This document shows, piece after piece, positions 10,486 to 36,003 of a stretch of 64,000 nt of DNA. The stretch's first letter is position 1; each line of letters starts with the position of its first letter. Below the pieces are notes generated by a model. The model made no database searches. It was not told the DNA's origin and worked only from the letters and a program-made list of their open reading frames with translations. Made by a program: the position numbers and the translations under genes. Source of the stretch: an uncultured Poribacteria bacterium (GTDB lineage Bacteria > Poribacteria > WGA-4E > WGA-3G); NCBI GenBank assembly GCA_951828385.1, contig OX639973.1, positions 1,426,001 through 1,490,000 of the forward strand, written 5' to 3'.

Positions 10486-12231
10486 ATGGCAAATTATCAA
10501 GAACTCGCAAATCTGGTTTGGACTGTAGCGGATGATGTGCTCAGAGGACTGTTCAAACCACACGAATACGGCGATATCACCCTCCCGTTTCTGGTGCTGC
10601 GCCGATTGGACTGCATCTTGGATGAAGACGATCGAAAAGATAAAGCGATCCAAAGTTACAATCAATTCAAAGATCAAGTATCCGAAGAAGCACTACCGCA
10701 GATTATCCTGAGAGAGATAAACGCCAGCTTCTACAACACCTCCCAATACGACCTCTCTCGACTGACAGAGGATCCGACCAACATCCGCCTCAATTTTGAG
10801 AACTACATCAATGGATTCAGCGAAGATGTCCGCGACATCATCGAAAACTTCAATCTTGATGGCTTTATCGAACGGCTTCACAAAAACAACCGGCTGTTCA
10901 TGTTCTGCGATAAGTTCACCGAAGTCGATTTGCATCCCGATAAGGTAGATAACCACATGATGGGGCAGGTCTTTGAGGAACTGCTCCGCCGATTCTCCGA
11001 GATGTCCAACGAAACGAGTGGCGAACATTACACGCCGCGGGATGTCGTGCGGTTATTGGTCTCGCTGCTGTTTGCGGAACACCGTGAAAACCTGCGCGGG
11101 CAGGGGCTTGTCCGCAGTATCTTCGATCCGTGTTGCGGGACGGGCGGCATGTTGACGATTGGGAAGGAGTACTTCCGTGAACAGATTAATCCGGATGCTG
11201 ATATTCGGCTGTTAGGACAGGAGCTGAACGCGCAGACTTATGCAATCTGCAAGTCGGATATGCTCATCACCGGGGAGGACGCTGACAGTATCCGACACGG
11301 CTCCAGTCTCTCTAATGACCAGTTTCAAGGGAAACGCTTTGATTACATGATAACAAATCCGCCCTTTGGTGTCAGTTGGAAGTCTGACGAAGGGGCGGTG
11401 AAAGCGGAAGCACAAACCGCCACCGGTAGATTCTCAGCGGGTACGCCTCGCTCTTCCGATGGGGCGTTGTTATTCCTGCAACACATGCTCTCCAAGATGG
11501 AGACCCACGGGAGTCGGGTCGGCATCGTCTTTAACGGATCGCCGCTTTTTACGGGGGATGCTGGCAGCGGTGAGAGTGAAATCCGACGTTGGATTATCGA
11601 AAACGACTGGCTGGAATGTATTATCGCGCTCCCTGAAAAATTGTTTTTCAACACCAGTATCGCCACCTATATCTGGATCTTAACGAACCGAAAATCGGAA
11701 AAACGACAAGGTAAGATCCAACTGATTAACGCCGTTGACTTTCATAGAGAGATGAAAAGAAATCTCGGCAGCAAGAGTGTTTTCATTTCCGATAGCCATA
11801 TCCGCCAAATCGCCGAATTGTACACCGACTTTGAAGAGACGGAACACGCCAAAATCTATCCAAACGACTTTTTCGGCTATACGAAGGTGACGGTAGAGAG
11901 ACCGCTCATAGAAAAACAGGAGATTCTCGGAGAGGAAACAGAAGTCGTTGTCACGGATAAGCAGGGCAATCCGAAACCAGATACCAAGCTGCGAGACTAT
12001 GAGCGCGTTCCGCTCACAGAAGACATTGAGAATTACTACCAACGAGAAGTGAAACCGCACGTGCCGGATAGTTGGATAGACAGAAAGAAGGATAAAATAG
12101 GCTACGAGATCAACTTCAATCGGTATTTCTACCAGTACACACCGCTGCGCTCACTGAAGGAGATTGCCGATGAATTGTTGGCACTGGAACGGAAAAGTGA
12201 AGGCTTACTGAATGAGGTTTTGAAGTATTGA
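10486..12231 (+). CDS. hsdM: Type I restriction-modification DNA methyltransferase subunit
   Basis: A 581-residue N6-adenine methyltransferase. It has the N-terminal HsdM helical domain, the AdoMet-binding motif DPCCGTGG (residues ~214-221) and the catalytic NPPF motif (~291-294). It starts after CGAAGGAGACGC. It would work with HsdS (17252-18406) to methylate the recognition sequence and with HsdR (18946-21930) to cut unmodified DNA. It is separated from hsdS by about 5 kb of inserted genes, and two decayed copies of its own 3' end lie within that stretch. A perfect promoter overlaps its stop codon. Confidence 0.95.
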   Translation: MANYQELANLVWTVADDVLRGLFKPHEYGDITLPFLVLRRLDCILDEDDRKDKAIQSYNQFKDQVSEEALPQIILREINASFYNTSQYDLSRLTEDPTNIRLNFENYINGFSEDVRDIIENFNLDGFIERLHKNNRLFMFCDKFTEVDLHPDKVDNHMMGQVFEELLRRFSEMSNETSGEHYTPRDVVRLLVSLLFAEHRENLRGQGLVRSIFDPCCGTGGMLTIGKEYFREQINPDADIRLLGQELNAQTYAICKSDMLITGEDADSIRHGSSLSNDQFQGKRFDYMITNPPFGVSWKSDEGAVKAEAQTATGRFSAGTPRSSDGALLFLQHMLSKMETHGSRVGIVFNGSPLFTGDAGSGESEIRRWIIENDWLECIIALPEKLFFNTSIATYIWILTNRKSEKRQGKIQLINAVDFHREMKRNLGSKSVFISDSHIRQIAELYTDFEETEHAKIYPNDFFGYTKVTVERPLIEKQEILGEETEVVVTDKQGNPKPDTKLRDYERVPLTEDIENYYQREVKPHVPDSWIDRKKDKIGYEINFNRYFYQYTPLRSLKEIADELLALERKSEGLLNEVLKY

Positions 12232-12256
12232 CAAATAGCAAATTTTATGGTATAAT
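12228..12256 (+). promoter_or_regulatory. Perfect consensus promoter overlapping the hsdM stop codon
   Basis: TTGACA at 12228-12233 and TATAAT at 12251-12256 with a 17-bp spacer: both hexamers and the spacing are the sigma-70 ideal. The hsdM stop codon TGA is part of the -35 box. It would drive the inserted genes starting with the GIY-YIG gene independently of hsdM. Confidence 0.85.
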
Positions 12257-35286: not shown

Positions 35287-35479
35287 TTCAACCTTCTTTG
35301 AGTCCTCCTGATATCAGTTCACATGGATTCAATAGAAATAATAATAGGTGGTGTCTTCTTTTCTTAGTTTCAATTGTAACGTCTACTATTGCTAAAAAGC
35401 AACAAAAAAGTGAATGAGAGTAAACATGGTCCTAAATAACAGAAATCACTTGCCAAATTTCGGGGCGTTATCTAATCTT

Positions 35480-35920
35480 CCGCTACAAAACCGAATCCTT
35501 TAGGTTTCGGATGTAGTAGCGGTCCCTTGAGTTGTGTCAAAAAACACTTGACAATTACCTAAAAAATTGGTATAATCATAGTGTATTCGGCATTGGTTGT
35601 GAGTTGATGCACTGGTATATTGCTTGATATTGAGACAACTACGTAAAAGCCTATACACCTCAGAAATATCTAAAATATGCTTGACATGTGTTCGGGAAAT
35701 CCAAGTCATGTTGTATCCCACGAGAATGTAAGAGGTTAATAGCCTTTCAGACACATCAAAATGCTCATAAGGCACTTCGGTGCGGGGTCGGGATAGCGTC
35801 CCTTGTGCTTAGGCATCGTAAGTCTTTCGTTTTTGACATTCTCAAAACAAAAGCAATGTCGTTTGAAGCCACAAATGCTTTCGCATAAAGTTTGCGGAAG
35901 CCCAATCCTTTAGGTTTGGG
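35480..35920 (+). mobile_element. Decayed IS200/IS605-like remnant bounded by ...AATCCTTTAGGTTT... hairpins
   Basis: A hairpin at 35480-35522 (CCGCTAC...GTAGCGG around CCGAA-TCCTTTAGG-TTTCGG) and one at 35901-35920 (CCCAATCC-TT-TAGGTTTGGG) resemble the subterminal hairpins of IS605-type elements. Before the second hairpin a forward frame ends in KAMSFEATNAFA-stop, like a degraded TnpB tail, but the reading frames are short and no intact TnpA or TnpB remains. The whole 35287-36003 gap has no supported gene. Confidence 0.5.
35548..35576 (+). promoter_or_regulatory. Perfect consensus promoter in a non-coding remnant
   Basis: TTGACA (35548-35553), 17-bp spacer, TATAAT (35571-35576). Both boxes are ideal, yet no ORF of substance follows before the aldo/keto reductase gene 430 bp downstream. 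It may drive a small RNA or be left over from the mobile element. Confidence 0.8.
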
Positions 35921-36003
35921 TCTATCACGTTACACTTAATTCAGAATTAACCGAATGTAGAATTTATCTTGAAAGTGTATCTTAGGAAATAAGGAGACAT
36001 CTG

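Follow-up and report, generated by a model that had tools for sequence, protein, structure and literature searches.

The element described here is probably a palindrome-associated transposable element (PATE), i.e., a non-autonomous transposable element of the IS200/IS605 type, whose product would be a chimeric omega-RNA and which would employ TnpA and TnpB proteins in trans. It appears to be a parasite that supplies a guide RNA only and no protein. The element lies in the 64-kb window analyzed in this work (G000:C1:1426001-1490000), which is part of the 6.66-Mb single-contig genome of a Candidatus Poribacteria sponge symbiont.

In a related genome, G005, the corresponding site (L147) is empty and consists of GGGCGTTAT directly followed by GTTACACT, with the right flank beginning GTTACAC, i.e., the two flanks of the window joined exactly. 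The element limits are therefore 35472-35928 (457 bp), rather than the 35480-35930 given in the first-pass annotation, and the insertion occurred 3' of TTAT without target-site duplication. Insertion 3' of a short target and without duplication is a trait of IS200/IS605 elements. A search of the own genome with positions 35400-36000 yielded 28 matches, namely this copy, nine near-full-length copies and many end-only matches, several of which adjoin tnpB genes. When aligned, the ten near-full-length copies, with identities of 98-84% to the one in the window, have a sharp left end after TTAT and a sharp right end in TCTATCAC; the other copies are preceded by T/GTTAT, the interior is conserved more than the left end, and the flanking guide segment is different at each copy. 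One additional copy is diverged. The element lacks a transposase gene and carries subterminal palindromes at both ends, the hairpins at 35488-35510 and 35898-35920, which are 87% alike and confirm the IS605-type hairpin noted previously. The window element is an intact, multicopy mobile element and not the degraded remnant that it had been taken for, and its copies, sharp ends, empty site and copy-specific guides form the pattern of a selfish element with recent activity. A search of a phage collection with the element gave no match, which speaks against a phage origin.

Contig 75 of G005 (L133/L147) also contains an independent insertion of the same family, about 190 bp from the insertion site of the window, at the 5' end of the same lytic-transglycosylase-like gene; the window represents the empty allele of this insertion.

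Table 1. Coordinates of the element, its promoter and the predicted RNA, in window positions.
Feature	Position	Strand	Remarks
Target site TTAT, also candidate TAM	35468..35471	+	Element directly 3' of TTAT; empty site in G005
Whole non-autonomous IS200/IS605-type element	35472..35928	+	457 bp; ends set by ten own-genome copies and the empty site
Left end with subterminal hairpin 35488-35510	35472..35530	+	Resembles left ends of same-genome tnpB elements
Sigma70-type promoter TTGACA-N17-TATAAT	35548..35576	+	-35 at 35548-35553, -10 at 35571-35576, both exact
Predicted non-coding RNA	35583..35928	+	346 nt; guide added from flank; predicted start G35583, within helix P1
Conserved RNA head	35583..35675	+	Covariation; matches of covariance model R1
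Head P1	35583-35586/35653-35656 and 35589-35591/35649-35651	+	Outer part covarying; GGC/GCC part read by eye
Head P2	35599-35606/35636-35642	+	Covariation
Head P2a hairpin	35609-35613/35619-35623	+	Covariation
Head P3, pseudoknot with P2	35626-35634/35659-35670	+	Covariation
Middle structured domain, helices 5-8	35676..35768	+	Covariation analysis of the whole type-A RNA
Omega-RNA-like scaffold	35769..35928	+	Homologous to tnpB 3' end and right end from ~35790
Match to the final codons of type-A tnpB genes (..KSTNAFA*)	35846..35889	+	Sequence match
Right end: subterminal hairpin and terminal TCTATCAC	35898..35928	+	Identical end in tnpB elements L032, L034, L036, L039
Predicted guide segment, outside the element	35929..35944	+	16 nt shown; inferred from omega-RNA architecture (PMC10278001, PMC10097598)

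The promoter, which had been described as perfect, is indeed exact at 35548-35576, and only two sites combining TTGACA and TATAAT with a spacer of 16-18 nt are found in the 64-kb window, compared to 0.05 expected from shuffles. The exact consensus is present in only 2 of the 10 own-genome copies; in most relatives, a -10-like sequence is found about as far from the RNA head. As judged from its sequence, this is the element's own left-end promoter, like those of tnpB elements. The second exact TTGACA-N17-TATAAT of the window, at 12228-12256, overlaps with the 3' terminus of a reading frame; inspection of its surroundings revealed no IS605-type ends. Upstream of the head, AAAC-N15/16-CGTCTAA, which looks like an ECF-sigma promoter, takes the place of the sigma70-type promoter in 17 of 58 elements (e.g., L029, L040, L115, L122, L156), and the family appears to swap promoters together with the left end.

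In agreement with the earlier statement that no real ORF follows the promoter, the ORFs between it and 35928 have no Pfam match at E<=1, and those of 35-91 aa inside the element were rejected as genes because they belong to no Pfam family and one-base indels between copies break their frames. Comparative analysis points instead to a structured RNA. G35583 is located at the usual distance from the -10, and the GTAT at this position pairs with ATAC after a conserved GCC. This outer part of P1 is complete in 51 of 58 elements, compared to 28 expected after reshuffling, and its pairs vary among these elements (GTAT/ATAC, GTGT/ACAC, GTGT/GCAC, GCAG/TTGC and others). Within the head, 94.6% of the cells of P2, P2a and P3 are paired, 10 of 16 pairs show changes on both sides, and the covariation score of 0.442 compares to at most 0.171 with slid partners and is reached by none of 500 shuffles. 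For the whole type-A RNA (defined by its right end, see below), 87 pairs have 97.9% of cells paired, with double changes in 27 pairs vs. 12.9 in shuffles and a covariation score of 0.234 vs. at most 0.073 with slid partners; because this structure was derived in part from the tested alignment itself, the slid control favors it and the shuffle control is the fairer one, and related sequences can also exceed shuffles. Given these pairing and covariation statistics, the identification of the element interior as a structured RNA is well supported. Given also that the promoter is present and that the predicted 5' end of the RNA lies in P1, transcription would run from this promoter into the predicted RNA.

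The head is shared well beyond the window. The covariance model R1 detects 11 copies in the own genome and 104 copies in 25 of the 85 genomes of the phylum, with a patchy distribution within two genera of one family only, and the head motif has 41 matches in a contig database, all in Poribacteria MAGs. Many head matches in G039 and G042 are at contig edges (e.g., G042:C27:7-90 and C28:7-90), as expected when near-identical recent copies break assemblies. A search with R1 of 74 tnpB/tnpA loci of the own genome produced no convincing match (best E 0.2), so the possibility that the head is a piece of a tnpB coding sequence was discarded. The relatives have three types of right ends, type A (TCTATCAC), type B (GTATGTCAA) and type C (GGGTACC..TGAC), the head is common to all three, and each type seems, by sequence comparison, to resemble a different tnpB group. 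One copy, L030 (G000:C1:5025467-5025835), is chimeric, with a type-A head and right end and a type-B-like middle and loop, which suggests recombination between element types.

The 3' part of the RNA links the element to TnpB. The TnpB-like tail peptide mentioned in the first-pass annotation is real at the DNA level: the last ~140-147 nt of the type-A tail match four tnpB genes of the same genome with E-values of 1e-14 to 1e-16, in a region that starts 117 nt upstream of the tnpB stop codon and extends through the right end. The earlier reading had been staked on a resemblance between the right end and TnpB elements; this resemblance was found, and in this respect that reading stands. The type-C tail matches its tnpB group with E 1e-29, and the type-B tail shows weak similarity to a tnpB tail (E 3.5e-5). 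Known omega-RNAs have base pairs between the nucleotides that precede the guide and a segment located further upstream (PMC10097598), as well as a terminal scaffold hairpin at most 10 nt from the guide (PMC10278001). In the window element, the loop at 35792-35796 (GATAG) is complementary to 35922-35926 (CTATC), which directly precede the predicted guide, and the right-end hairpin 35898-35920 ends 8 nt before the element end, i.e., less than 10 nt from the guide. Among type-A elements, this pseudoknot (GRUAG/CUAUC) has five pairs in 12 of 19 cases and four of the five in the other 7 of 19; the type-B counterpart (GRCAU/AUGUC) is formed in 16 of 16; examination of type C for a pre-guide pseudoknot found none, and other pairings are possible there. 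The type-A tnpB genes have a matching GGUAG loop, whose stem differs in sequence. Sequence comparison thus supports the identity of the RNA as a TnpB-type guide RNA, and the best explanation of its architecture appears to be a chimeric omega-RNA that consists of the head, the middle domain and a 3' omega-RNA scaffold. The head may protect or stabilize the RNA, assist its folding, or improve its loading onto TnpB or its share of TnpB; it could also impair rather than help TnpB use because it has no counterpart in the omega-RNAs compared.

Potential partners are encoded in the same genome, where the TnpB domain PF07282 is matched 55 times (54 above the cut-off and one below) and the Y1 TnpA domain 12 times; the TnpB load is very high relative to that of TnpA. 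Each end of the window copy matches tnpB elements of its own genome. The type-A tnpB genes L032, L034, L036 and L039 share the right end TCTATCAC with the element, and all four TnpBs keep the D-E-D residues (by motif). Elements of the L011/L016 type, with both tnpA and tnpB, have the left end found in copies L029 and L030, and tnpA+tnpB elements of the L010/L012/L013 type have both ends as in the type-C relatives. We saw no tnpA element with the exact type-A right end; the tnpA elements that match at the left end finish in GTATGTCAA. Type-A TnpB is present in 7 of the 8 genomes that carry type-A elements, which is weak support given the genus base rate of 23 of 37; no type-A TnpB was found in G003 (89% complete), which has a type-A element.

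Mobility, the ends, the RNA structure, the scaffold homology and the pre-guide pseudoknot are read from the sequence, while transcription, the use of TnpA and TnpB in trans and the cutting of the donor site are what we infer. Under this scheme, the left-end promoter would drive the synthesis of an RNA of about 346 nt, with the pseudoknotted head followed by the middle domain, the omega-RNA scaffold and then flanking sequence as the guide (35929 onward, downstream of the right end). TnpA of an autonomous relative would excise the element and insert it 3' of TTAT, and TnpB of a relative, for which there are four type-A genes in the genome, would load the element RNA in trans. After excision, by analogy with the general TnpB model (PMC10278001), TnpB would cut the re-sealed donor site beside TTAT, and repair would restore the element. 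The guides differ from copy to copy and therefore imply no fixed host target. More tentatively, and with somewhat less than even confidence, we propose that a lineage of guide-RNA-only elements coupled one dedicated and conserved pseudoknotted RNA module with omega-RNA scaffolds from three or more different TnpB groups and so parasitizes several RNA-guided nucleases in trans for its own retention.

Alternatively, the RNA might be a decoy or regulator that binds TnpB (or TnpA) and titrates or represses autonomous elements, with the head as its active part, which we consider rather unlikely. The head is indeed the part common to all three right-end types and lacks a counterpart in the tnpB loci that were searched, and the tnpB mRNAs of this genome start with a different pseudoknotted leader, which makes control of tnpB at the RNA level plausible. 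However, a pure decoy would have no need of the pre-guide pseudoknot or of a right end that extends to the guide boundary, and the scaffold retains both, an objection softened by the fact that the right end is required for transposition as well.

Another possibility is that the conserved RNA acts alone, e.g., as a ribozyme or an intron, with the TnpB-like tail kept as a transposon end only. The RNA is large and pseudoknotted, and in IStrons, ends of the IS605 type are joined to a group I intron (PMC4227781). This explanation is nevertheless very unlikely: Rfam has no match to the element at the gathering score, HEARO and group I introns included, and nothing convincing at E<=5, where two sRNA families are the only hits, with scores well under their gathering scores; an internal promoter seems to set the start of the RNA, whose 5' end is paired in P1, whereas an intron needs both exons; and the tail homology reaches ~100 nt into the tnpB coding sequence and includes the pseudoknot, beyond the needs of a transposon end. 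The helix order of the head, as read by eye, does not fit an HDV-like or a hammerhead ribozyme.

The domestication of the RNA for a fixed host role, the idea put forward in the first-pass annotation, seems highly improbable. The promoter is strong and exact and the RNA highly conserved, and the idea holds with regard to derivation from IS605/TnpB, an omega-RNA-like 3' end and a fitly placed promoter; against domestication itself stand the polymorphic insertion, with its empty site, the ten copies, which include multiple recent ones, and the copy-specific guides. Scarcely any credit is due to a decayed remnant or an ends-only MITE without RNA function: no protein is encoded and ends-only PATEs are known (PMC3119063, PMC7290912), but the strong covariation, with double changes in 27 of the 87 pairs, as well as a middle conserved more than the left end, refute this reading as far as covariation shows.

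Thus, the favored interpretation remains a PATE that makes a chimeric omega-RNA. PATEs have been described in Haloquadratum walsbyi (PMC3119063) and Halanaerobium hydrogeniformans (PMC7290912) and, according to the accessible text of these papers, share with the window element the lack of a transposase, IS605-like ends, subterminal palindromes, the absence of target duplication and the multicopy state. Some PATEs are described there as deletion derivatives with fused ends (PMC3119063, PMC7290912), and the Halanaerobium PATE keeps the last 58 nt of tnpB together with the right end (PMC7290912). In contrast, a predicted gene for a conserved structured RNA occupies the interior of the window element; it has a promoter of its own and a 5' head that is absent from the tnpB loci searched. 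No promoter-driven, conserved long guide-RNA gene with a 5' domain common to several right-end types was found in the accessible text of the PATE papers (PMC3119063, PMC7290912). Like the omega-RNA (reRNA) of TnpB, the element RNA has a scaffold that ends at the right end, a predicted guide from the flank, a 3' hairpin near the guide and a pre-guide pseudoknot (PMC10278001, PMC10097598), but it has no tnpB in cis, has its own promoter, is ~346 rather than ~106-116 nt long and has a conserved pseudoknotted 5' head that is absent from the tnpB loci searched. TldRs, relatives of TnpB that act as transcription factors with guide RNAs, likewise represent a TnpB-derived guide RNA system; they are regulators with a defined target, whereas the element guides merely match the flank of their own insertion (PMC13418256). 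A fixed locus and a conserved guide would be TldR-like traits; here, the locus is empty in G005 and the guides differ.

Omega-RNAs of the IscB type carry the guide at the 5' end. Standalone IscB omega-RNAs, i.e., guide RNAs without an adjoining nuclease gene, were reportedly described by Altae-Tran et al. in 2021. By that account, the two systems are alike in the lack of an adjoining nuclease gene, and they differ in that the guide of the element would be at the 3' end, as in TnpB. Transposase-free IS605 derivatives and TnpB omega-RNAs are thus already known, and what differs here is the predicted promoter-driven long guide-RNA gene with a shared 5' domain. Our search of the accessible literature found no paper that combines Poribacteria and TnpB.

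A role attributed to TnpB is the retention of IS605-type elements, for which it cuts re-sealed donor sites as directed by a guide that the element encodes. If the benefit of such retention can be obtained in trans, then protein-less elements that consist of a guide RNA only should evolve. The family described here looks like such a case: it comprises dozens of natural copies with several right-end types and includes a new RNA domain. It offers a direct test of the hijacking of TnpB-mediated retention, as well as a naturally occurring long omega-RNA architecture for further study.

The tnpB mRNAs of this genome possess a conserved structured leader of ~95 nt, located between the left-end promoter and the tnpB start, with the pattern GTATCA..GGCAGACA..TGTCTGCC..TGATAC and a pseudoknot (L034, L042, L053, L056, L064, L066, L080, L086, L087 and others). 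Both this leader and the element head are pseudoknotted, but their helix order differs, and we do not claim homology between the two. Rfam at a permissive threshold gave nothing meaningful for eight tnpB loci. Among 17 distinct leaders, 16 form a perfect pseudoknot helix of 6-8 bp, for which more than 10 sequence variants exist, and the leader is possibly involved in tnpB autoregulation.
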